Assembly (NCBI RefSeq): GCF_016793485.1
Contig: NZ_JAEULZ010000038.1
Location: 124,001-188,000, forward strand
Origin: Mesorhizobium sp.
Lineage (GTDB): Bacteria; Pseudomonadota; Alphaproteobacteria; Rhizobiales; Rhizobiaceae
DNA: 64,000 nucleotides
Direction of reading: 5' to 3'
Both the position numbers and the translations under genes were made by a program. This document shows, in pieces, positions 13,147 through 36,590 of this stretch (the first letter of the stretch is position 1; every line of letters begins with the position of its first letter). Below the pieces are notes generated by a model. The model saw nothing but the letters and a program-made list of their open reading frames with translations. It was not told where the DNA came from and did no database searches.

Positions 13147-14409
13147 TCAGTTCTTGACGATCAGCGGCAGCTCAATCGCCTCCACCGTGATGGCCGGCTG
13201 TACCGGCTCCTCGGCGAAGGTGAAAAGCTCCATTTCCTCCGACACGCCGTTCAGCCGCTGCCGGCCGATGCTGACCCAGCTCTCGGGCTGGAGCGCGACG
13301 ATGTCGCGAGTCACCAGCGCGTCGACGCCGGTCGCCTTCGTCAGCGACTCGATGCGCGATACCTCGTTGACGGTCGGCCCTATGACCGAGAAGGTCAGGC
13401 GCTGCGACACGCCGATATTGCCGAACATGACGGTTCCCGTGTTCAGCCCGATGCCAAACTTTATGGGGAAGAGCCCCTGATCCATGCGCGCCTCGTTCAA
13501 CCTGTCGCGCGCGGCAAGAACGTTGGTCAGCGCAGTGGTGGCGGCCATAACTGCCTGCTTCTGCTGGTCGGCATCGGAATAGGGGAAAATCGCCAGCACG
13601 CCGTCGCCGACGAAATCGAGTACCTCGCCGCCCGCCTCGATGATGGGGGTCGCGGTGACGTCGAAATATTCGTTGAGGAGCTGGATGAAGTCCTTGCCGG
13701 GCATGGTGTCGGCCAGCGCGGTCGAGTTGCGCAGGTCGTTGTACCAGACCACCGCCCGCGTTTCCGCGCCGTCGCCTCTGCGGATCGAGCCCGCGAGGAC
13801 GCGGTTGCCGGCCTCCCGGCCGAGATAGGTCTCTGAGATGTTGCGGGCAATGCGGGCCTGGATCGCTGTCTTGCAGGCGACCGCGAAGCGGCGCTGGATC
13901 TTCTTGATCGCCTCCAGTTCGTCGTTGGTGAAGCCTCCCGGCCTGTCCGCCGACCACGTCGCGATGATGCCGAGCGTCTTGGTGGTATCGATTTCGTTGC
14001 GTATAGTCAGCGCGGTCCGCAGGACGAGATAGTCGGTCAGGCCTTGCTCGGCCAGTTCGTGCAGGACCGGAAAGTCGAGGAGTTGGGCCGGGCCGTCCAG
14101 ATTGCGGCGAAGCACGTTCAGGTCATGGTCGAACATGTATTTCATGGGGCTCTGAAGCCACGCGTCCGAAGCATTCTCCTGATGCAGGAACTGCTCGAAC
14201 TCCGTTGCCTGACCGCGTCTCCAGACTATGGTCTCGGCCTTGAATAGTGGATGCAAAGTCGGCCAGGTGAGCCGCGCGCGCCCAAGTGGAATCCCGATCC
14301 CGTGAATCCGGTTGCACAAGCCCTCGAACATGGTGACGACATCCGGCTCGCCGAGGGCCTGATCGACCAGCCACTCGTTGATCCCGGTTACAAGCGTTGC
14401 GTCCGTCAT
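13147..14409 (-). CDS. Class III nucleotidyl cyclase-like protein with non-canonical purine-site residues
   Basis: The 420-residue protein has an N-terminal region of about 200 residues, possibly a GAF-like sensor (LRTALTIRNEIDTTKTLGI), and a C-terminal class III cyclase domain. Both metal aspartates are present (VVWYNDLRNST, DFVGDGVLAIF), as are the transition-state Asn and Arg (VNEVSRIE). The usual adenine-specifying Lys of K-x-x-G-D is Asp (DFVGD), and the Asp of IGDxVN is Pro (VIGPTVN). Cyclase activity is plausible, but the nucleotide is uncertain. No membrane segment is seen. It is divergent from DUF3095, and a cyclic-nucleotide-binding protein lies at the far end of that transcript. 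Confidence 0.87.
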   Translation of the reverse strand: MTDATLVTGINEWLVDQALGEPDVVTMFEGLCNRIHGIGIPLGRARLTWPTLHPLFKAETIVWRRGQATEFEQFLHQENASDAWLQSPMKYMFDHDLNVLRRNLDGPAQLLDFPVLHELAEQGLTDYLVLRTALTIRNEIDTTKTLGIIATWSADRPGGFTNDELEAIKKIQRRFAVACKTAIQARIARNISETYLGREAGNRVLAGSIRRGDGAETRAVVWYNDLRNSTALADTMPGKDFIQLLNEYFDVTATPIIEAGGEVLDFVGDGVLAIFPYSDADQQKQAVMAATTALTNVLAARDRLNEARMDQGLFPIKFGIGLNTGTVMFGNIGVSQRLTFSVIGPTVNEVSRIESLTKATGVDALVTRDIVALQPESWVSIGRQRLNGVSEEMELFTFAEEPVQPAITVEAIELPLIVKN

Positions 14410-14543
14410 GAAAACCTTCGTGAAAATCCGCCCGACCGTCCCAATCGTAGCATGTGGGAAGACGACAGTGATTTTTTTAGTGTTCCGGCAAATTTAAGCT
14501 GACCATTGCGCGGCGCGCTCAGATCAAAGGCGGAGGACTGGCC
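14410..14543. promoter_or_regulatory. Divergent promoter region between the cyclase-like and DUF3095 genes
   Basis: This 134-nt gap must carry start signals for both directions. An A/T-rich stretch at about 14470-14500 (GATTTTTTTAGTG, CAAATTTAAGC) stands out from the GC-rich surroundings. A GGAGG site precedes the TTG start of DUF3095. I cannot fix individual -35/-10 elements. Confidence 0.4.
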
Positions 14544-15686
14544 TTGTCCGTGGAAAGTGAAAATTTCACCCGCTCCCTTCCTGTGAGCGCCGAGTTCAAT
14601 GCGGTGCTCGACGAGGAGTCGTATCGCAGGGTGCCCGACAACTGGCTTATAGCCGTGACCGACGTCGTCAGTTCGAGGAAGGCGATTGCGCAAGGACGGT
14701 ACAAGGCCGTCAACATGGCAGGCGTCGGGGTGATCAGCGCTTTGATGAATGCGCTGGGGACGCAGACCTTTCCCTATATCTTCGGGGGTGATGGCGCGGC
14801 GGCCATTTGTGCCGCCCAGGACCGCGAGGTCGTGGCCGACACGCTGGCCAGGATGGTTGCCTGGGCGCGGGATGAGCTCGACCTCGAATTGCGTGCAGCG
14901 CTGATTCCCGTTGCCGACATCCGCGCGGAGGGTTTTGATCTGCTCGTCCAGGCGGTGCGTGTTTCGGACGCCATTAACAACTTCGCATTTCAGGGCGGTG
15001 GCCTTTCGCGGGCGGAAGCGCTTATGAAGGCCGGAAAATATGCGGTTCGGGCTGCGGATGCCGGCAGTCGCCCAGACCTCACAGGCCTTTCCTGCCGATG
15101 GTCGCCGATAACCCCGCCGCATGGAAAGATTGTCTCGATCATCGCCGAACCCGGGGCCGGCGCCGAGGAGCGATTTTCCGACGTCGCGCAACGTCTTCTT
15201 GCATTGATCGGCATGCATGTGGTCGGTGGCGGGTCGCCGATGCCCAAGGAAGGGCCCACTGGGGCTTGGCCGCCAAAAGGGTTGGAACTGGAGGCGCGGG
15301 CGGGGCGGGAAAGATATCCGCTGTGGCTGCGAAAGTCCGGGCTTTACTTTTGGACCTTGTGGGCGTGGTTCGTCCTCAGGTTCGAAATCAATATCGGTTC
15401 CTTCAATGCCCGCCACTACAGGCAATTTACTTCTCTCAATACGGACTATAGAAAATTCCAGGACGGATTGAGGGTGACGGCGTCGTTGGGGGACTCCGAG
15501 CTGGCCAGATTGACCGATTTTCTTGAGGGGGAGCGCGTTGCGAAAAATCTTCGCTACGGACTTTGCGTTCAAGATAGTGCAATGCTGACCTGCTACGTGC
15601 CGTCTGTGATGTCGGATGAGCACTTTCACTTTCTCGACGGCGCAGGGGGCGGCTATGCCGGGGCAGCGGAGAACATGAAGTCCTGA
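14544..15686 (+). CDS. DUF3095 protein with cyclase-like palm motifs
   Basis: The 380-residue cytoplasmic protein shows the DUF3095 hallmarks YRRVPDNWLIAVTDVVSS, GRYKAVNMAGVG and PYIFGGDGAAAI. The TDVVSS and GGDGAAA segments sit where class III cyclases and GGDEF enzymes hold their two metal aspartates (D-x-x-x-S-T and G-D-G). I therefore infer a palm-type nucleotidyl-transferase fold; this is not established. It starts at TTG 14544, supported by GGAGG about 7 nt upstream. It is divergent from a class III cyclase-like gene and precedes the ABC cassette by 127 nt, which suggests a signalling role. Confidence 0.82.
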   Translation: MSVESENFTRSLPVSAEFNAVLDEESYRRVPDNWLIAVTDVVSSRKAIAQGRYKAVNMAGVGVISALMNALGTQTFPYIFGGDGAAAICAAQDREVVADTLARMVAWARDELDLELRAALIPVADIRAEGFDLLVQAVRVSDAINNFAFQGGGLSRAEALMKAGKYAVRAADAGSRPDLTGLSCRWSPITPPHGKIVSIIAEPGAGAEERFSDVAQRLLALIGMHVVGGGSPMPKEGPTGAWPPKGLELEARAGRERYPLWLRKSGLYFWTLWAWFVLRFEINIGSFNARHYRQFTSLNTDYRKFQDGLRVTASLGDSELARLTDFLEGERVAKNLRYGLCVQDSAMLTCYVPSVMSDEHFHFLDGAGGGYAGAAENMKS

Positions 15687-15813
15687 TCGACGAAGACCGG
15701 CGTATCAAATCGAGACATGGGTTGTGGGTTACAGACGGCGCTGATGGCCGTATGGTCGTCGGCCTAAGCAGCATGATGCGGCAGCGTATCGAAAGCGGGT
15801 TGGGGAATGCGAG

Positions 15814-17700
15814 TTGGATGAGGGTGAGGTTCTCCGCGTCAACGACCTGAGGGTGGCGTTCGACGTAAACGGCTCGCCGGTCGAGGTCGTAAAGGGCATT
15901 GGGTTTCGGGTCTGTCAGGGTGCGGTCACCGCCGTCGTTGGCGAATCCGGGTCTGGCAAGTCCGTCACGGCCCAGGCCATTATGCAGATTCTGCCCAAGA
16001 ACGGCTCCATCGTCGGCGGCTCCATAGAGTTCCGGCCGAAGGATGGCGCTGTCGTCGACATGGCGAAACTACCGCCCAATGGGCCGCATGTGCGGTCGCT
16101 GCGTGGCTCGGCCGTCTCGATGATCTTCCAGGAGCCGATGTCGTCGCTGTCTCCAGTGCACACGGTCGGCGACCAGGTTGAGGAAAGCCTGCGCATTCAC
16201 GCTCTGGGTAAAGGCCTGAGCCGGAAGGAACTACGGGCAGCGACCGAAGAGACGCTCGGGCTGGCCGGTTTCCCTGATCCCCATCGCGCTTACGACATGT
16301 ATCCGTTCGAGATGTCCGGCGGATTGCGCCAGCGCGCCATGATCGCCATGGCGCTGATCTGCCGGCCTGCCTTGTTGATTGCGGACGAACCGACCACCGC
16401 GCTCGACGTGACCGTCCAGGCGCAGATTCTGAAGCTGCTCAAGGATCTTCAGGCGAAATTCAACATGGCGGTCCTGTTGATCACCCACGATCTTGGCGTA
16501 GTGGCCAATCTCGCCGACGAGGTCGTGGTCGTCTATGATGGCCGGGTCGTGGAGGCCGGCCCTGTGGATGAGATATTCCGTGATCCGCAGCATGAATACC
16601 TGAAAGCGCTGCTGAACGCGGCGCCGCACTTCGACATGGCGCCGGACCAGAGGCTGGTCGCGCTGCGCGGCGGCAAGCGTGACATGATCGAGGCCAGGAA
16701 GACCGAAGCGCGCCGCGAACAGCCTGACAGCAGGCCGCTTCTGACGGTCTCCAACCTGAGCAAGATCTACCACCTGCGCAAGGCGTCGCTCTTCGGCGGC
16801 GAGGCGCGGGTGCTCAAGGCCGTCGACGACGTCAGCTTCACCATCAAGCGTGGCGAATGCCTCGGCCTTGTCGGCGAAAGCGGCAGCGGCAAGACCACGG
16901 TCAGCAAGATCCTCACCCGCGCCATCACGGCGGATTCCGGGTCGGTCGTCTTCGACGATGGCGAAAAGCAGGTCGATGTGCTCGCCTTGGACAACAAGGA
17001 GCTAAAGGCGTTCCGCCCGCACCTGCAGATGGTCTTCCAGGACCCGGTGAGCAGCCTGTCGCCCAGGATGACGATAGCCGACATCCTGCGCGAGCCCATG
17101 CAGATTCACGACCAGGGCAATCGGGCGCAGCAGACGGCGCGTGCCAAGGAATTGCTGACCGCTGTGGAACTCGGGCACAACGCGCTCAACCGCTATCCGC
17201 ACAGCTTTTCCGGCGGCCAGCGCCAGCGCATCGGCATCGCGCGCGCTCTCGCGATGAACCCGGACCTTCTCATCCTCGACGAGCCGGTTTCCGCTCTGGA
17301 CGTGTCCGTCCAGGCGCAGGTGTTGAACCTGCTGAAGGATCTTCAGAAAGAACTCGGCCTGACGTATCTTTTCATCGCACACAACCTTGCCGTGGTGAAC
17401 TACATGGCCGAACGCGTTGCCGTGATGGCTGCCGGACGCATCGTCGAGATCGGACCGAGCCGCGCTATCTTCGAGGCCCCCACGCACCCCTACACACGCG
17501 CGCTGCTGAAGGCTGTGCCCTTTGCTGATCTCGATCGGCCGCTCGTCCTCGACGAGTTGGTGCTGAAGGGGTCATCCGACCCGGGCAACTGGCCGGAAGC
17601 GTTCCGCGGCGATATGAACGATCTCGCTGCCGTCGATCTTGGCGGCGGACATCAGGTTCTGGCACGCAAGACTGCCGATTTCAGGGAGTTCAGAGCATGA
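15814..17700 (+). CDS. Peptide-type ABC importer, fused double ATP-binding protein
   Basis: The 628-residue protein contains two complete ABC ATPase domains, like YejF/GsiA. The first has Walker A GESGSGKS at about 42-50 and signature SGGLRQR; the second has GESGSGKTT at about 352 and SGGQRQR. Both have Walker B ([24 protein letters not shown]) and H-loops. It powers uptake through the two downstream permeases. It starts with TTG 15814 after GGGGA, and its stop overlaps the ATG of the binding-protein gene by 4 nt. Here the energy source is intact, unlike the degenerate ABC protein downstream. Confidence 0.92.
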
Positions 17701-19583
17701 GAATCTTTGCCGTCTTGATGGCCCTGCTGGCCATCGTGGTCGCCCCCGCCGCGAATGCGGAAGAGGCGCCCCTGCTCGCGACTGCGGTGAGCGAAGGGAA
17801 ATTGCCTGCGGAAGCGGAAAGGCTTCCGAAGGAACCGAAGGTGGTGACGATCGACGAGTCGACGGGCCGTACCGCCGGAAAGAGGGGAGGCACCATCCGC
17901 ACCCTTATGTCCGAACAGGGCGACTTGCGTCTGATGACCGTCTATGGCTACGCCCGGCTGGTCGCCTATAACAGCGCGCTCGAAATGCAACCCGATATCC
18001 TGCTGAGCTACGAAAACGACAGGAACAGGGTTTTCACCCTTCGTCTGCGTCCCGGACACAAGTGGTCCGACGGAAGCCCCTTCACCGCCGAGGATTTCCG
18101 CTTCCAGTGGGAAGATATCCTGACGGACAAGGACATGGATCGCGGCGGCCTCGACTCCGCGCTGCTTGCCAACGGCAAGGGGCCGAAGTTCGAAGTGATC
18201 GACGACCTGACCGTCCGCTATACCTGGGAGGATCCCAATCCGCTGTTCCTGCCAGCGCTCGCCGGGGCGAGGCCGCTCGATATCTACAGCGCGTCCGCCT
18301 ATCTGAAGCAGTTCCACGCCAAATATGCCGATGCCGCAAAGCTCGAAGCCGAGGTCCAGAAGGAGAAGGTCAAGGACTGGACGAGACTGCAGATCCGCAA
18401 GGGCCGCAGCTATCGATTCGAAAACCCGGACCTGCCCACTCTGCAGCCTTGGACGAACACGACAAATCCGCCGTCCAGCCGCTACGTCTTCAAGCGCAAT
18501 CCGTACTATCACAAGGTCGATCAGAACGGCCTGCAACTACCTTATGTCGACCAGGTCGTCGTCAACATCGCGGAAAGCTCGATCATTCCGGCCAAGACCG
18601 GTTCGGGTGAGAGCGACCTGCAGGAGCGGTATCTCAGTTTCGCTGACTACACCTTCCTGAAGGAAGGCGAGAAGCGCAACAACTACACGGTCCGGCTTTG
18701 GACGGTCGGCAAGGGTTCTGCGGTCGCGATCTATCCCAACCTCAACGCCAACGACGAGGGCTGGCGCAAGCTCTTCCGCGACGTGCGCTTCCGCCGCGCG
18801 CTCTCTCTCGGCATCGACCGTTCCGAGATCAACCAGGTCCTGTTTGCGGGGCTGGCCAAGGAAGGCGCGAGCACCGTGCTCCCCGGCAGCCCGCTCTACC
18901 GCGACGAACTCGGCAATGCCTATGCCGAGTTCGATCTCGAAAAGGCCAACGCTCTGCTCGACGAGATGGGGTTGACCCGTGACGCGAACGGTATGCGAAA
19001 GATGCCCGACGGCCGGTCGCTCGACATCATTGTCGAGAGTACCGGTGAAAGCACCATGGAAGCGGACGTTCTCGAACTGGTGACAGAGGACTGGAAGAAA
19101 CTCGGCATCAAATTGCTGACCCGCACCAGCCAGCGCGATATCTTCCGCAGCCGCGTAGCCGCCGGCGAAACCAACATGTCGGTCTGGGCCGGCGTTGACA
19201 ATGGAGCGCCGACCGCGGAATTCAATCCTCAGGAATTCGTCCCCAGCGATCCCTATCAGTTGCAGTGGCCGATGTGGGGGACCTACATCAGCAGCCAGGG
19301 CACGGCTGGGCAGAAGATCGACCTTCCAGAGGCGCAAAAACTGGTCGACCTCTACAAGCAGTGGCTATCGTCGGAGGACAGCGCGGCACATGAGAAGATC
19401 TGGAGCGAGATACTCGATATAAATGCAGACCAGGTTTTCTCCATCGGCATCGTGACGGCCACGCTTGTGCCGGTCGTGATTTCGAACAAGCTGAAGAACG
19501 TGCCCGCCGAAGGCATTTCGAGCTTCGATCCCTACGGCTATTTCGGCGTCTATGAGATGGACGCCTTCTGGATGGACGAGTGA
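17697..19583 (+). CDS. ABC importer periplasmic binding protein, peptide/opine family 5
   Basis: The 628-residue protein begins with a signal peptide ([21 protein letters not shown]) and has the SBP family 5 layout: the LRPGHKWSDGSPFTAEDFRF signature near residue 120 and FRDVRFRRALSLGIDRSEI near 360. It captures a peptide or other oligomeric ligand in the periplasm. It is longer than DppA/OppA (about 535 residues), closer to the large SBPs of YejA-type systems. The ligand cannot be inferred. It is translationally coupled to the ATPase gene upstream, with permease genes 102 nt downstream. Confidence 0.9.
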   Translation: MRIFAVLMALLAIVVAPAANAEEAPLLATAVSEGKLPAEAERLPKEPKVVTIDESTGRTAGKRGGTIRTLMSEQGDLRLMTVYGYARLVAYNSALEMQPDILLSYENDRNRVFTLRLRPGHKWSDGSPFTAEDFRFQWEDILTDKDMDRGGLDSALLANGKGPKFEVIDDLTVRYTWEDPNPLFLPALAGARPLDIYSASAYLKQFHAKYADAAKLEAEVQKEKVKDWTRLQIRKGRSYRFENPDLPTLQPWTNTTNPPSSRYVFKRNPYYHKVDQNGLQLPYVDQVVVNIAESSIIPAKTGSGESDLQERYLSFADYTFLKEGEKRNNYTVRLWTVGKGSAVAIYPNLNANDEGWRKLFRDVRFRRALSLGIDRSEINQVLFAGLAKEGASTVLPGSPLYRDELGNAYAEFDLEKANALLDEMGLTRDANGMRKMPDGRSLDIIVESTGESTMEADVLELVTEDWKKLGIKLLTRTSQRDIFRSRVAAGETNMSVWAGVDNGAPTAEFNPQEFVPSDPYQLQWPMWGTYISSQGTAGQKIDLPEAQKLVDLYKQWLSSEDSAAHEKIWSEILDINADQVFSIGIVTATLVPVVISNKLKNVPAEGISSFDPYGYFGVYEMDAFWMDE

Positions 19584-19685
19584 TGAGGCGGCGCGCCTCA
19601 CATATGGGCATGGCCACCGGCGGTGTAACGATGTCGGCTGCATGTAAGGCCGAGGCGGCTTGGCTGGGCGGGGATACGCTTTAGA

Positions 19686-20684
19686 ATGCTGTACTACATC
19701 TTCCGCAGGTGCCTGATGATGATCCCGACGCTGGTGATCACCAGCGCGCTCATCTTTGCCATCATCGAGGCGCCTCCGGGGGACTATCTGGAAAGCTACA
19801 TCGCCGAGCTGAAGGCGCAGGGAGAGTCGGTTGACACCGCGCGCATCGAATACCTGCGCAAGGAGTACGGCTTTGATAAATCGCCCGTCGAGCGCTATTT
19901 CAACTGGGTCGGCGGCATGTTTGTCGGCGACTTCGGCTATTCCTTCGCCTATGAATTGCCGGTGACGGCGGTCGTGGGAGACAGGCTTTTCCTGACCGTC
20001 GTCGTTTCCATAGCCACCATCATATTCACCTGGCTCGTAGCCTTTCCGATTGGCATCTATTCGGCAACCCGGCAGTACAGTTGGGGCGACTACGGCTTCA
20101 CATTTCTAGGGTTGCTGGGGCTGGCGATCCCCAATTTCCTGCTCGCGCTCGTGCTGATGTATCTGGCGAATGTCTGGTTCGGCACGTCGATCGGGGGGCT
20201 CGTGAGTCCCGAACTGATCGACCAACCCATGAGCTGGGAAAAGTTCCTGTCGGTGCTGGACCACATATGGGTGCCGGTGATCGTGATCGGAACCGCCGGC
20301 ACTGCCGGCATGGTTCGCCGCATCCGCGCCAACCTGCTGGACGAACTCCAGAAGCAATACGTGACGACAGCCCGCGCGAAAGGTCTGCACCCGTTTCGGG
20401 CACTGGTGAAGTATCCGCTTCGCATGTCGCTCAACTTCTTCATCTCCGACATCGGCTCGCTGCTGCCGGCGATCATCTCCGGCGCCGAAGTGGTGGCGAT
20501 CGTGCTTTCGCTTGAAACGACAGGCCCGCTGCTCATCGCCGCACTGCAGAAGCAGGACATGTACCTCGCCGGGTCCTTCCTGATGTTCCTGTCGTTGCTG
20601 ACGGTCATCGGCGTGCTGATTTCCGATATCGCGCTTGCCTGGCTCGATCCGCGTATCCGCCTCAGCGGAGGAGTTCGCAAATGA
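19686..20684 (+). CDS. ABC importer permease, DppB/OppB type
   Basis: The 332-residue protein has about six membrane segments and the DppB-type layout: an N-terminal segment (RCLMMIPTLVITSALIFAII), a periplasmic stretch with YLRKEYGFDKSPVERYFNW, and the EAA loop (TTARAKGLHPFRALVKYPLR) that docks on the ATPase. It forms the channel with the next permease. It starts at ATG 19686 and overlaps the next gene by 4 nt (ATGA). Confidence 0.92.
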   Translation: MLYYIFRRCLMMIPTLVITSALIFAIIEAPPGDYLESYIAELKAQGESVDTARIEYLRKEYGFDKSPVERYFNWVGGMFVGDFGYSFAYELPVTAVVGDRLFLTVVVSIATIIFTWLVAFPIGIYSATRQYSWGDYGFTFLGLLGLAIPNFLLALVLMYLANVWFGTSIGGLVSPELIDQPMSWEKFLSVLDHIWVPVIVIGTAGTAGMVRRIRANLLDELQKQYVTTARAKGLHPFRALVKYPLRMSLNFFISDIGSLLPAIISGAEVVAIVLSLETTGPLLIAALQKQDMYLAGSFLMFLSLLTVIGVLISDIALAWLDPRIRLSGGVRK

Positions 20685-21850
20685 CCTTGCCCGCGAACGC
20701 CACGAGGCTGCCGCATACCGTTTCGGATCGTCCTTTCGATCCCGAGGCGATCTATCAATTCACGGATGCCCAGAAGGCGCTTTTCGAAGCGTCCCAACGC
20801 AGGCTCATGTGGTGGAAATTTCGCCGCCACAAACCCGCGCTTATTTCCGGTATTTTCCTCGCGATCCTTTATATCTCGATCCTGTTTTCGGAGATGTTGG
20901 CGCCCTATAACCTCGAGACGCGCAATTCGAAATTCATCTACGCGCCGCCGCAAAGCGTCCATCTGTTCAACGACGGCCAGTTCATCGGTCCGTTCGTCTA
21001 CGGCTTCGACTACAAGCTGAACATGGATAACCTGAAGCGGGAGTACGTTCCCGACCCTACCAAGGTTCAGCGTCTGCGCTTCTTCTGCAGTGGCGAGACC
21101 TATAAGTTCTGGGGTCTGATCGAAGGAAGCTTCCGCCTCGTCTGCCCGCCCAAGGATGGCACGTTCTTCTTCATGGGCACCGATCGGCTTGGACGCGACG
21201 TTTTCAGCCGCATCATATATGGGGCGCGCATCTCGCTTACGATCGGCCTTCTCGGTGTTGGCGTCAGTCTGGTGCTTGGCATCGTGATCGGCGGTCTCGC
21301 CGGCTATTACGGCGGGCTCTTCGACACGCTGAGCCAGCGCTTGATCGAGGTCATCCAGTCGCTGCCGTCCATTCCGTTATGGTTGGCGCTGGCAGCGATT
21401 CTGCCCATTACCTGGTCGCCAATCGTCGTCTATTTCGGCATAACCGTCATTCTGGGCCTGCTGGATTGGACAGGTCTGGCGCGAACGGTGCGATCCAAGC
21501 TGCTGGCGTTGCGCGAGGAGGACTATGTATCCGCCGCGCAGGTCATGGGGGCCAGCGACAGGCGCGTTGTGTTCCGCCATCTGGTTCCGGGCTTCGCATC
21601 GCATCTTATCGCCACGGCCACCATCGCGATCCCCACCATGATCCTGGGCGAAACGACGCTGAGTTTCCTCGGTCTCGGGCTCAGGGCGCCGATCACCAGT
21701 TGGGGCGTGCTTCTGACCGAGGCACAGAACATCAATGCCGTCGCGCTGTATCCCTGGCTGCTCTGGCCGGTGGTCCCTGTCATTCTGGTGGTGCTGGCGT
21801 ACAACTTCTTCGGAGATGGCCTGCGAGACGCCGCAGACCCCTACAAGTGA
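20681..21850 (+). CDS. ABC importer permease, DppC/OppC type, with long periplasmic insert
   Basis: The 389-residue protein has the DppC core (GTDRLGRDVFSRIIYGARIS, then SAAQVMGASDRRVVFRHLVPG as the EAA loop, and TLSFLGLGLRAP). Ordinary DppC proteins have about 300 residues. Here roughly 90 extra residues lie between the first membrane segment (residues about 55-75) and the core. This stretch is aromatic and contains two Cys (FFCSGETYKFW, RLVCPPKDG), so a periplasmic disulfide-linked loop is possible. It overlaps the upstream permease and ends 94 nt before the degenerate ABC protein gene. Confidence 0.9.
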   Translation: MTLPANATRLPHTVSDRPFDPEAIYQFTDAQKALFEASQRRLMWWKFRRHKPALISGIFLAILYISILFSEMLAPYNLETRNSKFIYAPPQSVHLFNDGQFIGPFVYGFDYKLNMDNLKREYVPDPTKVQRLRFFCSGETYKFWGLIEGSFRLVCPPKDGTFFFMGTDRLGRDVFSRIIYGARISLTIGLLGVGVSLVLGIVIGGLAGYYGGLFDTLSQRLIEVIQSLPSIPLWLALAAILPITWSPIVVYFGITVILGLLDWTGLARTVRSKLLALREEDYVSAAQVMGASDRRVVFRHLVPGFASHLIATATIAIPTMILGETTLSFLGLGLRAPITSWGVLLTEAQNINAVALYPWLLWPVVPVILVVLAYNFFGDGLRDAADPYK

Positions 21851-21879
21851 GACGAGTGCATAGTCTTGTTGAGGTGAAA

Positions 21880-21904
21880 GCCCCGCGGATGGTCGATCCG
21901 GGGC
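21880..21904 (+). other. Intercistronic hairpin in the ABC/cNMP transcript
   Basis: GCCCC..GGAT pairs with ATCCGGGGC around a 5-nt loop, with a 2-nt bulge on the left arm. No T-run follows, so it is not a typical terminator. It may protect the upstream mRNA or reduce read-through into the 892-residue protein gene. Confidence 0.4.
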
Positions 21905-21944
21905 AATCTGGTGGCTGCTTGCTTCGGACGTGGAAGAATTCCGC

Positions 21945-24623
21945 ATGAACGACAGGATGGAGCAGAACCTTTTCAGGTATATCTGGAGCCACTCCAAGCG
22001 CCATCAGATATGGATTCTGATCGTCGTCGCCCTGTCGATGCCGACCTACTTCCTTGCTTTCGACATCCCCAAGCAGATCGTGAACGGCCCGATCCAGGGA
22101 GGTGGTTTCGAAACGCCCGACGCGACGCAGAAGGTGATGCCGGTCGTCGTCAGCAATCCCTTCGGCGATCAGTCCTTCACGATCTTCGAAGGATTCGAGG
22201 TTGGCCGCATGGGCGCGCTGATCGCGCTCTCCCTGGCGTTTCTCGGTTATGTGATTATCAACGGTTGGTTCAAGCTCTACATCAACACCTACAAAGGCCG
22301 CCTCGGCGAACGCATGTTGCGGCGACTTCGCTACCAGCTCGTCGACCGTGTACTGCGCTTTCCGTATCCGCAGTACAAGCGCGTCAGAAGCTCCGAGATC
22401 GCCACGATGATCAAGGACGAGGTCGACCCGCTGGGCGGCTTCATCGGCGAGGCTTTCGCGACGCCGGCCTTTCTTGTCGGCCAGGCGGGTGCGGCGCTGC
22501 TCTTCATCATGCTGCAAAGCTGGGCGCTCGGCCTCGTCACGCTAGCTATCCTGATGGTGCAGACCATCCTGATCCCCAAGCTCAGGGCGCGGCTTCGCCG
22601 TCTCGCGCTGCAGCGTCAGTTGACGGCCCGCGACCTCTCTGGCCGGGTGAGCGAGATCGTCGATGGCGCGATCGACATCCGCCTTAACGACAGCACCAAT
22701 TTCGAGCGCGCCGACATTTCGGATCGCCTGGCGAAGATATTCTTCATCCGCTTCGACTTCTACCAGTGGAAGTTCATGGTGAAGTTCATCAATAACTTCC
22801 TCGCCCAGTTCACACCCTTCGTTTTCTACCTTGGCGGCGGCATCCTGGCGATCCGCGGCAGTCTGGACATCGGCCAGCTCGTCGCGGTCATCGCCGCTTA
22901 CAAGGACCTGCCGGGCCCCATCAAGGAACTGATCGACTGGGATTACCAGCGCCTCGACGTCCAGGTGAAATACACCCAGGTCGTCAATGCCTTCGATATC
23001 ACGCCGTTGTCGCCGCCGCTGATGCAGCAACTCCAGACCGGCAACGTGCCCCATCTCGAGGGTCCGTTCGTGTTCCGCCAGGTCGCGGCCGCGGATGAGT
23101 CCGGCAAGTCGCTGCTGCAGGGGCTCGACCTCACGATCGAACTGCGCGACCACGTCGCCGCAGTCGGCGCAACGGGCGATGGGGCTGAGGTCGTTGGCGA
23201 GCTTATCGCGAGGCTGATGTCGCCTTCGGCGGGTACGCTGAATGTCGGCGCAGTAGCGCTGGCTTCCCTGCCGGAATGGGAGACGGGCCGGCGTATCGGC
23301 TATGTCAGCCCGGAGCCCTTTTTCGCGCACGGCACGGCGCGCGATGCATTGCTCAGCGGCTTGCGCCACGCCCCGTTCAGGCCGCCGCCCGAGGGCAAGG
23401 CAATGAGCCAGATCTTCGTCAGAGAGGCAACCGCATCCGCCAATCCGCAGTTCGACCGCAACGCGGACTGGGTCGATTACGAGGCGGTCGGAGCGAGCAC
23501 CGGGGAGGAACTGGCCGCCCGGATTACCCAGGTGCTGGCGATGGTGAACTTGCAGGAGGATTTCTACGCCTTTGGCCTGCGCACGAAGCTTTCCGATGCG
23601 ACCGATGGCGACGGCGAGGAGATGTTTCTCAATGCGCGCCGCATCTTCCTGGAACGCCTCACCAAAGGCGACAATGCCGCCGACGTCGAGCCCTTCGTCC
23701 TGACGCAGTTCAACACGCAGCTTACGCTATTCCAGAACGTCATCTTCGGCGCGGCGTCCTCGCCCGAGATGCTGCCCAGCGAATTCCCGGCGGACTCGCC
23801 GCTCTGGGATTTCCTGGCGAGCAACGAGCTCGACCGAAAACTCTATCAACTCGGCCGTGAAGCATCCGCCGTGATCGTCGACCTCTTCGGCGAAGTGTCG
23901 GACAACATGAAAATCCTCGAGCGATTGGACCTTATCGACCCTGTAAAGCTGCCGGACTACAGCGCGGCGCTGGGCCGAACCGAGGGCGTGGATTTCGCCA
24001 CTGTGGTCCGGATGGATCAACAGCGATTCATTCGTGTAGCGCTGAACTACAACGAGCCCCGCCATCGACTGGATCTGCTGACCGAAGACCTGCGCGACGC
24101 CATTGTCGCCGCGCGAATGAACTTCCGCGAGAATCTGCCTCCCCATGTGGCTGCGGAGTTTTCGTTCCACGATCCCGACGAGATCAATCCCTACGCGTCC
24201 CTGCAGGATAACATCCTGTTCGGGCGCATCGTGGACAGCCGCGCGGGCGCGGTGGACCGCGTCAGTGCGCTGTTGCGCGAAATCCTTGAGGAACTTGGCC
24301 TGTCCTACGCCGTTCTTGAGCGTGGGTTGAAGTACGAAATCGGATCCGGCGGCCGGCGCTTGTCCCTCTCGCAGCGTCAGCAACTCGGGTTGGCACGCGT
24401 GCTTTTGCGCCGGCCGGAGTTCCTGATCGTCAACCGCGGCCTTAACGCTCTCGACAACCGAACCGTGGAGAGGGTTGTCCGCGGCATTCTCGACATGTCA
24501 AAGTCGGACAAAGGAGGGTTCGGGGTATTGTGGATCACATCAACGGAATCCCAGGCGGCGCTTTTTGACAGGGTATTGAAGTTTTCGCGTGGGGCGCTGA
24601 TTTCGGACGAGACAGCAGGATGA
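21945..24623 (+). CDS. ABC-exporter-like membrane protein with degenerate nucleotide-binding domain (pseudo-ABC)
   Basis: The 892-residue protein has a six-helix exporter-type membrane domain (residues about 15-310), then a nucleotide-binding-like domain whose catalytic motifs are all altered. The Walker A position near 404 reads VGATGDGAEVVG with no Lys; the signature reads LSLSQRQ instead of LSGGQ; Walker B reads FLIVNRGLNALD without Asp-Glu; and the switch His is Ser (LWITSTES). Between the Q-loop-like segment (IGYVSPEPFFAHGTARDALL) and a second NPYASLQDNILFG segment lies an insertion of about 280 residues. ATP hydrolysis is improbable; a regulatory or scaffold role is inferred. ATG 21945 follows GGAAGAA; an upstream in-frame GTG at 21930 is less likely. 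It probably shares a transcript with the cNMP-binding gene. Confidence 0.85.
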   Translation: MNDRMEQNLFRYIWSHSKRHQIWILIVVALSMPTYFLAFDIPKQIVNGPIQGGGFETPDATQKVMPVVVSNPFGDQSFTIFEGFEVGRMGALIALSLAFLGYVIINGWFKLYINTYKGRLGERMLRRLRYQLVDRVLRFPYPQYKRVRSSEIATMIKDEVDPLGGFIGEAFATPAFLVGQAGAALLFIMLQSWALGLVTLAILMVQTILIPKLRARLRRLALQRQLTARDLSGRVSEIVDGAIDIRLNDSTNFERADISDRLAKIFFIRFDFYQWKFMVKFINNFLAQFTPFVFYLGGGILAIRGSLDIGQLVAVIAAYKDLPGPIKELIDWDYQRLDVQVKYTQVVNAFDITPLSPPLMQQLQTGNVPHLEGPFVFRQVAAADESGKSLLQGLDLTIELRDHVAAVGATGDGAEVVGELIARLMSPSAGTLNVGAVALASLPEWETGRRIGYVSPEPFFAHGTARDALLSGLRHAPFRPPPEGKAMSQIFVREATASANPQFDRNADWVDYEAVGASTGEELAARITQVLAMVNLQEDFYAFGLRTKLSDATDGDGEEMFLNARRIFLERLTKGDNAADVEPFVLTQFNTQLTLFQNVIFGAASSPEMLPSEFPADSPLWDFLASNELDRKLYQLGREASAVIVDLFGEVSDNMKILERLDLIDPVKLPDYSAALGRTEGVDFATVVRMDQQRFIRVALNYNEPRHRLDLLTEDLRDAIVAARMNFRENLPPHVAAEFSFHDPDEINPYASLQDNILFGRIVDSRAGAVDRVSALLREILEELGLSYAVLERGLKYEIGSGGRRLSLSQRQQLGLARVLLRRPEFLIVNRGLNALDNRTVERVVRGILDMSKSDKGGFGVLWITSTESQAALFDRVLKFSRGALISDETAG

Positions 24624-24663
24624 AAAGACCGATGAGTTTTCCCGCCGCCAGCAGGAGGGTCAT

Positions 24664-25119
24664 ATGAGTCTCGAAGAAGACGCATTGCTGCTCGCGAAAG
24701 TCGAGCTCTTCACCAACGTCGCCCCGCGTCGGCTGAAATTGCTGGCGCTTGCGTCAAGCCGCATGCTTTTTGCTCCCGGCCAGGATCTCTGCGTGGAGGG
24801 CGAGGAAGGGTATGAAGCATTCATCCTGGTTTCCGGCGAAGCCGACGTGAAGATCAAGACGCCCACCGGGATCGCGACCGTTGCGCGTCTGAAGCGCAAT
24901 GACATCGTCGGAGAAATGGCGATTCTTCGCGACATGCCCCGCACCGCCACCGTAACCGCCATTTCCGATGTCTCGACCCTGCGGATCGGCAAGCAGGATT
25001 TCCTGAATCTCCTGAAGGAGTTTCCCGAAGTGACCGTCGAAGTCATGCGCTCGCTGGCCGAGCGTCTGGCGCGCACCACCAGTGAACTGGCGAACCTGCG
25101 GTCGGCCACGAAGGCCTGA
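24664..25119 (+). CDS. Stand-alone cyclic-nucleotide-binding domain protein
   Basis: The 151-residue protein is essentially one CAP-type domain: LFTNVAPRRLKLLALASS at the start, beta-roll glycines, and a phosphate-binding cassette GEMAILRDMPRTATVTA with the Glu that holds ribose and the Arg that holds the cyclic phosphate. No DNA-binding HTH follows, only a C-terminal helix, so it should act as a soluble sensor or a subunit that signals by contact. GGAGG six bases upstream supports ATG 24664. It lies 40 nt after the pseudo-ABC gene and 3 nt before the metallo-hydrolase, so cotranscription is likely. Confidence 0.93.
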   Translation: MSLEEDALLLAKVELFTNVAPRRLKLLALASSRMLFAPGQDLCVEGEEGYEAFILVSGEADVKIKTPTGIATVARLKRNDIVGEMAILRDMPRTATVTAISDVSTLRIGKQDFLNLLKEFPEVTVEVMRSLAERLARTTSELANLRSATKA

Positions 25120-25122
25120 TTG

Positions 25123-25971
25123 ATGTCGTTGACGCCTGCTATCGATATTCGGGTATGGGGCGCGCGCGGCACGTTTCCCATGGTCGGCGCCGAGGCGCTC
25201 GAGTTCGGCGGCCATACGTCCTGTGTCGAGGTCCGTACAGGCGCCGGCGTGATGATCTTCGATGCCGGCAGCGGCATCATTCCCCTCGGGAAGTCATTGC
25301 TGGAGGAGGGTGTCACTCACATCGACCTCTTCTTCAGCCACGTCCACTACGACCACATCATCGGCCTGCCGTACTTCCTGCCTGCCTTCTGGAACAAGGC
25401 GAAGCTGCGCATCTGGGCCGGGCACATGCTGGACGGCTCGACGCCCGAGCAACTGGTCGACGGCATCTTCCGGCCGCCATACTTCCCGATCACCAAAGAC
25501 TACATGCGTGCGGACGTCGAATACCACAAGTTCTCGCCCGGCGACGTGTTGCAGCCGTCGCCAGACGTGGCGCTGGTCACTGGCGCGCTAAACCATCCCA
25601 ACGGCGCGGTCGGCTATCGCGTCGAACGGCAGGGCGCCGTCTTCAGCTACCTGACCGACTTCGAGCATGACGGCGGCCAAGGCGATGCCGAAGTTCTGCG
25701 GCTTGCGCACGACGCCGATCTTGCCCTGCTGGATACCACCTACACGCCGGAGGAATATCCGCGCTACGTCAAGTTCGGCCACTCCACCTGGGACCATGTC
25801 GGCAAGATGTGCGCTGAAGCCGGCGTTCATCGCTGGGGCATGTACCACCACATGCACATGCGTGACGACATCGACCAGCGCGCCATCGAGGAAGCCGCGC
25901 GGAAGGTGTATCCCAACTCCTTCGCGGTCAGGCAGGGCCAGCATTTTCATCTCTACCCGCGAGCCCGCTAG
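25123..25971 (+). CDS. Metallo-beta-lactamase-fold hydrolase
   Basis: The 282-residue protein has the MBL metal motif HVHYDH near residue 75, the N-terminal strands WGARGTFP and CVEVRTGAGVMIFDAGSGI, the Asp of YLTDFEHD, and later histidines (FGHSTWDHVG, HHMHMRDD). The fold includes RNase Z, PhnP-type phosphodiesterases and class II cyclic-nucleotide phosphodiesterases. Given its neighbours, a phosphodiester or cyclic nucleotide substrate is a reasonable but unproven guess. ATG 25123 sits just after the previous stop; the codon before it, TTG 25120, could also serve. Confidence 0.9.
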   Translation: MSLTPAIDIRVWGARGTFPMVGAEALEFGGHTSCVEVRTGAGVMIFDAGSGIIPLGKSLLEEGVTHIDLFFSHVHYDHIIGLPYFLPAFWNKAKLRIWAGHMLDGSTPEQLVDGIFRPPYFPITKDYMRADVEYHKFSPGDVLQPSPDVALVTGALNHPNGAVGYRVERQGAVFSYLTDFEHDGGQGDAEVLRLAHDADLALLDTTYTPEEYPRYVKFGHSTWDHVGKMCAEAGVHRWGMYHHMHMRDDIDQRAIEEAARKVYPNSFAVRQGQHFHLYPRAR

Positions 25972-26012
25972 GGAATGGTGCGGGGACAGGATTTCCGAAA
26001 AAGCGCTTCAGC

Positions 26013-26768
26013 TTAGCCATCTAGCGGCGACGTGAAGCGCGCAACACCGCTAGCCGCCAACGTCTCCAACAATCGCTCAGTAAAAAACCACGTCGCATCG
26101 TCCTGGACGAGGTGATGCGTTAGGACGCCATACGGTTCGCCGTTGTCGGCGCTTCCTGTCCTCCGCGCTTCCAGTTCGCGCGACATCTGGGCGTCGAGTT
26201 GGTCCGGGCCGAGCAGTCCACCTCCGGACTTCCAAGCGACGGGATCGAGATGCGTGTTGACCTGCAACAAGCCGTCGGCAGCAAATCTTGTCGCGCGTGG
26301 TGTGTAGGTCGAGATCGCCTTGTAGCCGACCGGGGCGAGTTGGCTGACAACGGCGTCCGCGATCCTGTTCCACGGCGGCGTGAAGATCGGCAGCGCCTTG
26401 TCGCCAAACAGATCGCGCAATCTCTTCCGGCCTTCGGCGATTTCGCCAAGCATGACGGGGAGGGGGCGGTACGCACCAAACTCTGCCTTTTTCCTATCGG
26501 GCGGCGCGTGGTTGGCGTGCTTCCAGCCATGCGTCAGCGCGAAGACGTCGACTGCATTGCGCAGGCGCTCGGCAAGTTCCGGCTGTGCTGGCTGAGGCAC
26601 GATCGCAAGATGAAGCGGCGCGCGAAACCGTTCTGCAAGAGCAAGCAGCCTGTCCAGTGCCGGCGTGGGTTCGATTGCATCGTCGTCACGCCACCAGACA
26701 GGCAGTGTGAGGCCCTCGGCACGCCAGCGCGCAAGTTCGGCCATCGCCAATGGAAGCGGGGTGCTCAT
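26013..26768 (-). CDS. Polysaccharide deacetylase-like protein
   Basis: The 251-residue protein resembles NodB-fold deacetylases: VWWRDDDAIEPTPALDRLL holds the metal Asp pair near residue 20, LTHGWKHANH an internal His motif, and PIFTPPWNRI the FxPP-type strand. It would remove acetyl groups from a glycan or a lipid-linked sugar. No signal peptide is seen, suggesting a cytoplasmic location. The open frame runs 93 codons further upstream, but that part is the shadow of the glycosyltransferase. ATG 26768 gives a 4-nt overlap with the upstream gene and the expected N-terminus. It is the last gene of the glycan operon. Confidence 0.8.
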   Translation of the reverse strand: MSTPLPLAMAELARWRAEGLTLPVWWRDDDAIEPTPALDRLLALAERFRAPLHLAIVPQPAQPELAERLRNAVDVFALTHGWKHANHAPPDRKKAEFGAYRPLPVMLGEIAEGRKRLRDLFGDKALPIFTPPWNRIADAVVSQLAPVGYKAISTYTPRATRFAADGLLQVNTHLDPVAWKSGGGLLGPDQLDAQMSRELEARRTGSADNGEPYGVLTHHLVQDDATWFFTERLLETLAASGVARFTSPLDG

Positions 26769-27910
26769 TCGCGTTTGTCCAGCATCTCGATCAGGATGCG
26801 GCCGGTCTCCGCCGCACCATCGAAATTCAGGCTGTTGGCTTTGAAACGCCCTTGCAGCACCGCCTTGTCTGCCGCGGCGGCGAGATTTTCGGCGGTCAGC
26901 TCTTCCTCGGCGATCATGCCGTAGCCGTAGCGATCCCGAAGCAGGGATGCCCTCAGCGTCTGCTCGACCTCGCCGGCTTCGGCAAAGGGCACGAACACGC
27001 CCGGCACGCCGGCCTGCAACCAGTCGATCGCGGTGTTGTAGCCGCATTGCCCGACTGCAGCCGCACAGCGGGTCAACATGGCGCGATAATCCGCGCGGAC
27101 GGGCTCCGCAATGGCCGATCCACCTTCTGCAAGGGAGTTCAGCCGCGTACAGACAGCATCAGCGTCGGCCCCTCCGACCAGTAGCCGCCAACGATGGCGG
27201 CTCATGCGTGCGGCTGCGATGGCTGTCTCGAACAGCTTGCGACCGACAGCGCCCCCGCCTGCCGAAACGACGATTTCTCCTGCGCCATGGGTGTCTACCG
27301 GCGAGGGAACCGGAGGAGCAGGAGTGATGAACCCGGTGTAGCGCAGCAGTTCCGCAATCTGCGGCGTCACAGGCCAACTGGCGTCGAGTTCAGCCACTCC
27401 GGGATCGGAGTGAACCAGCACGCCATCGTAGAATTCGGAGAGCCAGCTCTCGGTCTGGATAGCCTTTTTCTCACTGGACGGAGGCGCAAGGATGTCGCGC
27501 ACCGACGACAGGATGAGGGGCGGGCGCTTCGTCGACCTTGTGGCTGCAAGCGCGGTCAGGAATTCCTCGCGCAGCACGCGCCGGCCAAAAGGAAAGAGTT
27601 CGGTGATAAGCGCGTCGGGTTCGTCCTCGCGAAGCGTAGCCACAAGGGCATCAATGCGCGCCTGCATGAGATCGGAGGAGGCCGGATTGCCATCGCTGTC
27701 CAGCAGGCTTGTAAAGCTTGTTCCATTGGAGCGCACCGGCGGCAACTGGACGAAACCGATGCGCGAGAGATCGAGGTGCCGGACCGGCATGCCGCCCGAG
27801 ATGAGTTGCGGCTCGAGGCCCGCATCGGCAAGCGCCCGCGCAAGCGTGATCGACCGGCTCAGATGGCCGGTGCCAAGCAGATGCGTGACGATAATGGCGA
27901 CGCGCTTCAT
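26765..27910 (-). CDS. Glycosyltransferase of the MurG-like (GT28/GT-B) type
   Basis: The 381-residue protein has a GT-B layout. The N-terminal VAIIVTHLLGTGHLSRSITLARALADAG matches the MurG-type nucleotide-fold start, and the C-terminal domain has IVVSAGGGAVGRKLF and CGYNTAIDWLQAGVPGVFVPF for the nucleotide sugar. It resembles the first gene of the operon (30826-32031). It probably adds a sugar to a surface glycan precursor on the cytoplasmic side. Donor and acceptor are unknown. It overlaps both neighbours. Confidence 0.85.
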   Translation of the reverse strand: MKRVAIIVTHLLGTGHLSRSITLARALADAGLEPQLISGGMPVRHLDLSRIGFVQLPPVRSNGTSFTSLLDSDGNPASSDLMQARIDALVATLREDEPDALITELFPFGRRVLREEFLTALAATRSTKRPPLILSSVRDILAPPSSEKKAIQTESWLSEFYDGVLVHSDPGVAELDASWPVTPQIAELLRYTGFITPAPPVPSPVDTHGAGEIVVSAGGGAVGRKLFETAIAAARMSRHRWRLLVGGADADAVCTRLNSLAEGGSAIAEPVRADYRAMLTRCAAAVGQCGYNTAIDWLQAGVPGVFVPFAEAGEVEQTLRASLLRDRYGYGMIAEEELTAENLAAAADKAVLQGRFKANSLNFDGAAETGRILIEMLDKRE

Positions 27911-28494
27911 CAGCCAGCGATCAGGCGAACGGGATCGTTGTCATGGCTGAGCGTTCCGTCGTCCTGCACGTCGATCCGATACAGGCGGTCTCGCTTTACC
28001 TTGAACGGCGGGGTACCTTCGAAATTCCAGCCCGTCGCCTTTGCCAGAAGCACACGCATGACGCCGATATGCGAGACAACGATGACCGTACCCTCGACCG
28101 AAGAAAGCCAAGGCTGCAAGCGTTCCCAGACAAGTTCGGGCGTCTCGCCGCCCGGTGGCTGAAAGTCCCATCCCCACCCCTCGATATGGCGATAGCCCGA
28201 ATTGCCGTCTGCGAGCAAGTCCACGCCCCGTTGCCCTTCCCAGCCGCCCCAGTCCATCTCGACAAGCTCCGGCGCGACCAGCGGGTCGCGTCGGCCCAGG
28301 ATACGAGCGGTCTCGACAGCCCGAACCAGCGGGCTGCAGACGAGCGTAGCGGCCGAAAATTCGCCCGGCAGGCGAAGGCCGGCGAGGTGTTCGCGCGCCG
28401 CATCGTCCAAGGGTTCGTCGGTGCGCCCCTGGATGCGCCCGGCGCGGTTCCACGCCGTATGGCCGTGGCGCAGGAGTGCAAGCTTCGCAGTCAG
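27910..28494 (-). CDS. Histidine phosphatase family protein, probable CTG start
   Basis: The phosphohistidine signature LALLRHGHTAWNRAGRIQG lies upstream of the first conventional start codon (TTG 28410), so the true N-terminus must be further up. The only in-frame near-cognate codon before an upstream stop is CTG at 28494-28492, which overlaps the TGA of the preceding glycosyltransferase. This gives 194 residues (TAKLALLRHGH...), the normal family size. Later catalytic residues are present (CSPLVRAVETA, EMDWGGWEG, VVSHIGVMR). It may dephosphorylate a sugar phosphate in glycan synthesis, or act as a cobalamin-type phosphatase; context favours the former. Confidence 0.8.
   Translation of the reverse strand: MTAKLALLRHGHTAWNRAGRIQGRTDEPLDDAAREHLAGLRLPGEFSAATLVCSPLVRAVETARILGRRDPLVAPELVEMDWGGWEGQRGVDLLADGNSGYRHIEGWGWDFQPPGGETPELVWERLQPWLSSVEGTVIVVSHIGVMRVLLAKATGWNFEGTPPFKVKRDRLYRIDVQDDGTLSHDNDPVRLIAG

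Positions 28495-35312: not shown

Positions 35313-35316
<4 letters not shown>
34300..35316 (+). CDS. UDP-sugar 4-epimerase (UDP-glucuronate epimerase-like SDR)
   Basis: The 338-residue extended SDR has the NAD motif [16 protein letters not shown] at residue 5, the catalytic SYGMSD-type Ser/Thr region (FASTSSVYG), and the YAASKKGGE Tyr-x3-Lys pair. The closest familiar architecture is UDP-glucuronate 4-epimerase, which makes UDP-galacturonate. Its pairing with a UDP-sugar 6-dehydrogenase fits provision of a galacto-configured uronic acid donor. ATG 34300 shares a base with the upstream stop; the codon before it, TTG 34297, is less likely. It overlaps the next gene by 4 nt. Confidence 0.93.

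Positions 35317-36590
<1,274 letters not shown>

Follow-up and report, generated by a model that had tools for sequence, protein, structure and literature searches.

What does an exporter-like protein do when its ATP site has decayed and a cyclic-nucleotide sensor stands beside it? The question is raised by a locus in a 64,000-nucleotide stretch of Mesorhizobium sp. (contig NZ_JAEULZ010000038.1, positions 124,001 to 188,000 of the forward strand; hereafter the window), where the gene for a protein resembling ATP-binding cassette (ABC) exporters, here termed psABC, is followed by that for a lone cyclic-nucleotide-binding (cNMP) domain and is surrounded by importer, cyclase, hydrolase and glycosyltransferase genes. 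ABC exporters are defined by ATP. We are confident that the locus is a surface-glycan system; whether cyclic nucleotide has taken over from ATP in controlling its exporter-like protein, which is the reading preferred here, stands in even balance. As far as searches of the open-access literature reach, no glycan locus that pairs an ATP-dead exporter with a conserved sensor of cyclic nucleotides has been described before.

The psABC protein and its cNMP partner

psABC has the fold of type IV ABC exporters, as judged from Pfam matches (ABC_membrane, E 4.2e-19; ABC_tran, 33.2 bits against a cut-off of 25, covering a partial domain) and from a Foldseek match to PCAT1 (E 1.3e-13, TM-score 0.36 by query length). 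The model has a pLDDT of 78.1, with the transmembrane part less sure. When 146 homologues were aligned with MAFFT, the motif set of an active exporter (Walker A Lys, Walker B Asp, catalytic Glu, LSGGQ, and H-loop His) was complete in none of them. The Walker A Lys is found in 22, the Walker B Asp in 10 (Asn in 125), the catalytic Glu in 23, and the H-loop His in 11, and only L203 and L231 combine Lys, Asp, and Glu, each still missing other motifs of the set. These 146 homologues are not independent, as some loci were entered twice (e.g. L036 and L076). The nucleotide-binding domain also carries about 300 extra residues between the Q-loop and the signature region, which resemble degenerate repeats of the Q-loop-to-signature part; hhalign gave 97.2% (E 2.9e-11) for the second and third repeat units, 74.7% for the first and second, and 25.4% for the first and third. 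Conservation across the 146 homologues is 0.71 in the transmembrane part versus 0.56–0.58 in the rest. In a few genomes (G147:C4, G419:C1, and G530:C67) homologues of the transmembrane part only were noted, spanning about 340 of 907 model positions in frames of 382–425 amino acids, as if this half of psABC were able to stand alone.

The cNMP protein finds PKG, PKA-R, and SthK among solved structures, and its phosphate-binding cassette is well kept: in 145 partners of psABC, Gly and Arg are present in all, and the Glu is present in 139 and replaced by Asp in 6. The gene lies beside psABC or is fused to it in 145 of the 146 loci, as a first-pass annotation of this DNA had expected of a single system. 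The exception is a psABC homologue on a 48-kb Methylobacterium plasmid (L192:2826-5621), beside which no cNMP gene was found and which is a possible orphan. In nine loci, all belonging to one clade (SH-aLRT 97 in a quick tree of 76 rows), psABC and cNMP are fused. Annotated fusion proteins are encoded on plasmids in Azospirillum oryzae (L190:12001-15225) and Ruegeria sp. B32 (L191:12001-15081).

The main reason for proposing that a cyclic-nucleotide site has replaced the ATP site is that the decayed ATP site adjoins a kept cyclic-nucleotide site. The cNMP protein probably acts through psABC, and the fusion of sensor and pseudo-exporter in one clade makes it natural to suppose, as the first-pass annotation did, that a cyclic nucleotide would act on the membrane protein.

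Linkage of psABC to glycan, importer, and signalling genes

To follow the locus across species, several sets of loci were compared. The closer relatives comprised 41 genomes, namely the window's own and 40 others up to the level of order, of which 20, including the window's own, contain a psABC orthologue (E < 1e-100). A second set, the named loci, held the best 80 of at least 475 relatives, with flanks of at most 10 kb. A third, class-wide set held 40 loci picked by hand from 36 families, 39 from a sample of 385 alphaproteobacterial genomes and 1 from a phylum sample of 398, with the window's genome present in both samples. The controls were 20 hand-placed regions of 20 kb at round coordinates; 19 came from genomes that also supplied class-wide loci, and 1 from another relative. 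Profiles were made from the families of the locus and run on the loci with a threshold of 60 bits (300 for psABC and the double ATPase).

Every relative (19 of 19), named locus (80 of 80), and class-wide locus (40 of 40) has a cNMP gene that is either fused to psABC or lies within 236 nucleotides of it on its strand; none of the 20 controls has one. When class-wide loci were compared with the control regions (40 versus 20), psABC and cNMP were each found in 40 versus 0, the glycosyltransferase families GTa and GTb each in 28 versus 0, GTc in 26 versus 0, histidine phosphatase in 26 versus 0, the double ATPase in 22 versus 1, and the deacetylase in 20 versus 1. One partial GTa match of 51 bits in a control region fell under the threshold. 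The remaining families are rare in these stretches: SBP5 (4 versus 1), the permeases, the metallo-β-lactamase (MBL) fold hydrolase, and the transmembrane cyclase (each 1 versus 1), Cya and the 2Fe-2S cyclase (each 1 versus 0), and DUF3095 (0 versus 1).

Because the importer runs past the edge of the 20-kb stretches, the flank was extended by about 12 kb in 20 loci chosen among the 28 class-wide loci with glycosyltransferases. These extended loci, of about 32 kb as against 20 kb for the controls, contain both permeases in 20 cases, SBP5 in 18, MBL in 13, a cyclase in 10, and MBL or a cyclase in 16, figures that are not transferable to all 40 loci. Their common order has psABC–cNMP divergent from GTa–GTb–GTc–phosphatase–GTa–deacetylase–importer, often with an MBL or membrane cyclase gene past the importer on the opposite strand. 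The idea that MBL and cyclase are add-ons of the Hyphomicrobiales was dropped, as the extended flanks show MBL and the transmembrane cyclase past the importer in many other families. The fetched stretches of the 19 closer relatives contain MBL in 15 cases and any cyclase in 11. The 80 named loci contain cNMP in all 80, GTa and GTb in 68, both permeases in 60, MBL in 34, and any cyclase in 33, and their recurring blocks are the importer, glycosyltransferases, psABC, cNMP, MBL, the deacetylase, another glycosyltransferase, DUF3095, and cyclases. Glycosyltransferases lie between importer and psABC in Rhizobium johnstonii and Rhizobium etli.

Genome-wide searches gave a similar picture. In the class sample psABC was found at E 1e-60 or better in 132 of 385 genomes; in the phylum sample it was found in 32 of 398, 31 of which belong to the same class. 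The GTa family adjoining GTb was found in 127 of the 385 at E 1e-40. Both occur in 125 genomes, psABC alone in 7, GTa alone in 2, and neither in 251 (kinship ignored), such that the two are together in 125 of the 134 genomes having either, unlinked cases included. In four genomes of family f123 (G145, G251, G341, and G419) GTa and MBL are 15–19 kb apart with psABC elsewhere. MBL is present in 121 of the 132 psABC genomes, and psABC and MBL fall within 26 kb of each other in at least 35 of 38 same-contig genomes picked by eye among the matches listed.

The window's genes are collected in Table 1. By open reading frames and Pfam, the nine genes of the first-pass annotation, from the cyclase to the MBL gene, are all where it had placed them, and its short spacings were confirmed: the plus-strand gaps from DUF3095 to MBL are 127, −4, 102, −4, 79 (94 to the ATG of psABC), 40, and 0 nucleotides, such that two pairs overlap by 4 nucleotides, and 134 nucleotides separate the cyclase from the divergent DUF3095 gene. 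The grouping is real and conserved but was drawn too short, with conserved partners running on to 32031 on the minus strand. Past this point lie genes for a polysaccharide lyase, an FkbM methyltransferase, an epimerase, a nucleotide sugar dehydrogenase, and a GT2 protein. The claim that the nine genes form one system also stood in part. Far outside the order to which the window belongs, importer, psABC, and cNMP are still found together, often joined by MBL and a class III cyclase; however, the nine do not seem to be the whole, the glycan genes are at least as tightly linked as the importer, which glycosyltransferases part from psABC in many loci, and the counterpart in Sinorhizobium meliloti is reported as a surface-polysaccharide locus. 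DUF3095 is an inconstant member: it accompanies psABC in 23 of the 80 named loci and in 4 of the 19 relatives, yet none of the 40 class-wide loci has it and one control region does.

Table 1. Features of the locus, in window coordinates
Feature	Coordinates	Strand	Basis and remarks
Class III nucleotidyl cyclase	13147-14409	-	PF00211; N-terminal part of about 200 amino acids plus cyclase domain
DUF3095 protein	14544-15686	+	PF11294, E 1.5e-109; predicted tandem class III cyclase-like fold
Fused double ATPase of Opp/Dpp-type importer	15814-17700	+	Walker motifs intact by eye
SBP5 substrate-binding protein	17697-19583	+	SBP_bac_5
Importer permease B	19686-20684	+	BPD_transp_1
Importer permease C	20681-21850	+	BPD_transp_1
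psABC, ABC-exporter-like	21945-24623 (ATG)	+	in-frame GTG at 21930
Lone cNMP_binding domain protein, 151 amino acids	24664-25119	+	Pfam
MBL-fold hydrolase	25120-25971	+	Pfam
Polysaccharide-deacetylase-like protein	26013-26768	-	named from the record of the S. meliloti homologue; no Pfam or NCBIfam match
GT28/MurG-like glycosyltransferase	26765-27910	-	GTa profile
Histidine phosphatase	27910-28482	-	profile
GT4 glycosyltransferase (GTc)	28491-29585	-	profile
GT4 glycosyltransferase (GTb)	29582-30829	-	profile
Glycosyltransferase-like protein	30826-32031	-	GTa profile, no Pfam match; family co-occurring with psABC genome-wide
Polysaccharide lyase	32238-33059	+	PF14099; same-family lyase in some relatives' loci; membership of the module less sure
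UDP-glucose/GDP-mannose-type dehydrogenase	35313-36590	+	less sure member; a homologue is part of the locus in S. meliloti and R. johnstonii

The window's cyclase retains both metal Asp residues and the transition-state Asn and Arg, and the purine-selecting Lys of adenylyl cyclases is replaced by Asp. In 16 aligned rows of its family the purine position holds Ser in 12, Asp in 3, and Ala in 1, whereas the 2Fe-2S and transmembrane cyclases have Lys there in 9 of 9 rows of the same alignment. In a second alignment Lys occurs in one distant member (L047). Cyclases that join a membrane N-terminus to a 2Fe-2S ferredoxin domain recur in 16 of the 80 named loci (e.g. L036:7891-9579 and L057:13280-14923), which suggests that redox state feeds into the signal. 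In some close relatives, namely L031 (14042-15403), L033, L051, L052, and L053, a membrane class III cyclase gene lies between MBL and deacetylase. It is absent there from the window (25972-26012) and from L032 and L050, which leaves the window's locus with only the cyclase of unusual purine pocket.

The fold predicted for DUF3095 is a tandem class III cyclase-homology fold. The fold comparison with cyclases was clearer than the profile–profile comparison (probability 5.6), and the DUF3095 sequence found nothing useful among solved structures (best E 0.14). No paper on DUF3095 was found in the open-access literature searched; a predicted fold is now supplied for it. In the MBL protein, HxHxDH and further metal residues are invariant in 16 of 16 aligned homologues, a motif that is common to other MBL enzymes and not specific to cyclic-nucleotide phosphodiesterases. 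Its match to the cyclic-nucleotide-degrading MBL phosphodiesterase model NF041851 is 36.2 bits, below the NCBIfam cut-off of 400. Pycsar models matched the cyclase (PycC, 84.4 bits) and the cNMP protein (PycTIR, 60.5 bits) through shared domains only, with no cut-off given, and Pfam detected no TIR domain in the cNMP protein. A defence role of the Pycsar kind was set aside, given the glycan context and the absence of a visible effector.

Side by side with the class-wide loci, genes named by eye as exodeoxyribonuclease III-like (16 of 40), small methyltransferase-like (13 of 40), LolA-like (12 of 40), and FtsK-like (11 of 40) recur as neighbours, hinting at a core-genome position of the locus.

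How the locus might work

If the preferred reading is right, the glycosyltransferases, phosphatase, and deacetylase would assemble a glycan in the cytoplasm, and psABC, as an exporter fold no longer driven by ATP, would sit in the inner membrane at the exit of the pathway. The cNMP protein would bind cyclic nucleotide and dock on, or be fused to, the dead nucleotide-binding domain, and occupancy by cyclic nucleotide, not by ATP, would decide whether the transmembrane part passes or assembles the glycan. The class III cyclases of the locus, and perhaps DUF3095 too, would produce the signal and the MBL protein would erase it, with the SBP5 importer recovering glycan fragments or sensing an outside ligand. 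We infer the signal molecule, the docking, the gating, the translocation, and the importer ligand from this arrangement. That psABC itself passes the glycan is somewhat short of an even chance. More tentatively, psABC–cNMP may be a new membrane machine, in which evolution swapped an ATP switch for a cyclic-nucleotide switch and a second messenger both made and removed by enzymes of the locus triggers glycan release or assembly.

Several observations weigh against cyclic-nucleotide control of a glycan exporter. It is not evident what would power the movement of a glycan by an ATP-dead exporter. No glycosyltransferase was found near psABC in 12 of 40 class-wide loci, and neither a cyclase nor MBL near it in 43 of the 80 named loci, within their flanks of at most 10 kb. 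The fetched stretches of the 19 closer relatives show GTa in 12, GTb in 8, and the importer in 6. The MBL family reaches beyond the locus, occurring in 59 genomes without psABC, at odds with the first-pass expectation that it would travel with the importer and psABC. Changes in the cNMP cassette, Asp for Glu among them, are seen in some fused forms. The open-access literature yielded no experiment on either psABC or the cNMP protein, and the polysaccharide of the S. meliloti counterpart, PPP, is uncharacterised, its nine genes not being itemised in the text passages available from PMC10128002.

The alternative that survives best, although an unlikely one, is that psABC is a non-transporting scaffold or regulator that holds or switches the glycosyltransferases by cyclic nucleotide, with the glycan leaving through an unlinked flippase. 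Loss of the full ATP motif set from every homologue would fit this, as would the repeat-like expansion of the nucleotide-binding domain, which is suited to protein contacts, and the families in which psABC–cNMP is unlinked from the glycosyltransferase block. However, a scaffold sits less well with a transmembrane part that is the most conserved region of psABC, and psABC is the sole exporter-type membrane protein among the tracked locus families, other flippase classes not having been searched for.

Degenerate halves of heterodimeric ABC exporters are generally known to keep ATP binding, whereas psABC is mostly without the Walker residues (Walker A Lys in only 22 of 146, Walker B Asp in only 10). 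It is improbable that psABC forms a heterodimeric ATP-driven exporter together with an active half encoded elsewhere, even with TM287/288 and TmrAB among its fold matches and with two annotated ABC transporter ATP-binding genes about 15 kb past psABC on R. etli p42e (L189:35442-38712), a locus in which a 44-bit match to psABC also falls. No second full-length psABC-like gene was found at class-wide loci, where ordinary ABC exporters were not searched for.

Little credence is given to the first-pass version, by which the cassette would stand alone and sense nutrients or peptides, with import setting a nucleotide signal and the glycan genes as mere neighbours. In the window's genus importer and psABC do adjoin each other on one strand, but glycosyltransferases are linked to psABC at least as tightly as the importer, sit between the two in R. 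johnstonii and R. etli, and include a family that co-occurs with psABC genome-wide. It is equally hard to believe that the cNMP protein is an ordinary regulator that does not act on psABC, as an annotated Crp/Fnr regulator in one S. meliloti record might imply, when it has 151 amino acids and no DNA-binding domain by Pfam, is adjacent or fused to psABC in all 40 class-wide loci, and is fused to it in nine loci overall.

Under cyclic-nucleotide control, psABC would be a direct test case for the re-powering or re-gating of the ABC fold: a lineage in 132 of 385 sampled alphaproteobacterial genomes in which the exporter fold is kept, the ATP-site motifs are lost, and a cyclic-nucleotide pocket lies alongside. 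The psABC–cNMP combination is open to test in Sinorhizobium. A cyclase, a hydrolase, and a sensor are thereby placed within a polysaccharide locus that published work ties to antimicrobial-peptide tolerance; a link to root colonisation runs through one gene, whose match is a putative one.

Comparison with known systems

The first-pass annotation knew of no described system with this make-up. The locus already has a name in S. meliloti, and its signalling module goes undiscussed in the passages available on it. Nine genes between smb21252 and smb21271 are reported to be needed for PPP, an uncharacterised surface polysaccharide that protects against phazolicin, a role reported for S. meliloti only (Travin et al. 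2023, PMC10128002). Mutants in smb21252 and in smb21265, both glycosyltransferase genes, had a minimal inhibitory concentration of phazolicin of 0.078 versus 0.625 uM, eight-fold lower (PMC10128002), and seven of the nine PPP genes are reported as up under Myxococcus attack (PMC10315480). By gene order, a match made in this analysis, the counterpart of the window's locus would be SMb21252–SMb21271. The R14 pSymB record runs through a PIG-L deacetylase, an aminotransferase, a sulfotransferase, GT4, an unannotated gap, GT4 (GTc), and a polysaccharide deacetylase, then MBL, DUF3095, a nucleotide sugar dehydrogenase, a cyclase, a lyase, and the importer, and ends with GTa, GTb, GTa, a methyltransferase, psABC, cNMP, FkbM, and LacI. 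Published locus tags, as given in passages of the respective papers, agree with this order: SMb21247–SMb21249 (PMC5498481), SMb21250 and SMb21257, the latter termed a truncated adenylate cyclase (PMC12542648), and SMb21252 (PMC10128002).

Window and PPP cluster are alike in holding homologous families in one locus, with profile matches in the window and in R14 pSymB. They differ in that the window has importer, psABC, cNMP, and MBL contiguous, with the glycosyltransferases downstream on the other strand. In the R14 record both GTa genes are split over two reading frames and look broken or misread there. The PPP cluster is treated as biosynthetic in the passages available from PMC10128002, which do not discuss the cyclase, the cNMP domain, or psABC, and no discussion of psABC, the cNMP protein, or the locus cyclase as part of a mechanism was found in text passages of the open-access literature. 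In R. johnstonii 3841 the locus is on pRL11, where pRL110043 has been termed an arabinose efflux permease (PMC11406972) and pRL110056 reported as important for root colonisation (PMC11103875). Counting from pRL110043 as the MFS gene near cNMP, pRL110056 would be the nucleotide sugar dehydrogenase of the locus.

With type IV ABC exporters (MsbA, PCAT1, and TmrAB) psABC shares the transmembrane domain and the overall fold, and it differs in its degenerate ATP-site motifs and about 300 extra repeat-like residues. By their NCBIfam descriptions, NHLP bacteriocin exporters and the cNMP protein TIGR03896 associated with them are an ABC-exporter and a cNMP family serving bacteriocin-type transport, but the matches here are weak, far under the curated cut-offs (91.6 versus 853.3 and 38.8 versus 161.05). 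The exporter MsbA2 of S. meliloti is presumably SMb21191, which would fall outside the PPP cluster. MsbA2 is described from the stcD region as an ABC exporter, encoded on pSymB, of a polysaccharide of unknown function, and loss of MsbA2 is harmful only with the upstream glycosyltransferase genes intact (PMC12239276). Cyclic-nucleotide-gated membrane proteins and the regulatory domains of PKA and PKG share the phosphate-binding cassette and, in one psABC clade, the fusion to a membrane protein; the partner of the cNMP domain is a channel or kinase in those systems, whereas here it has the fold of an ABC exporter.

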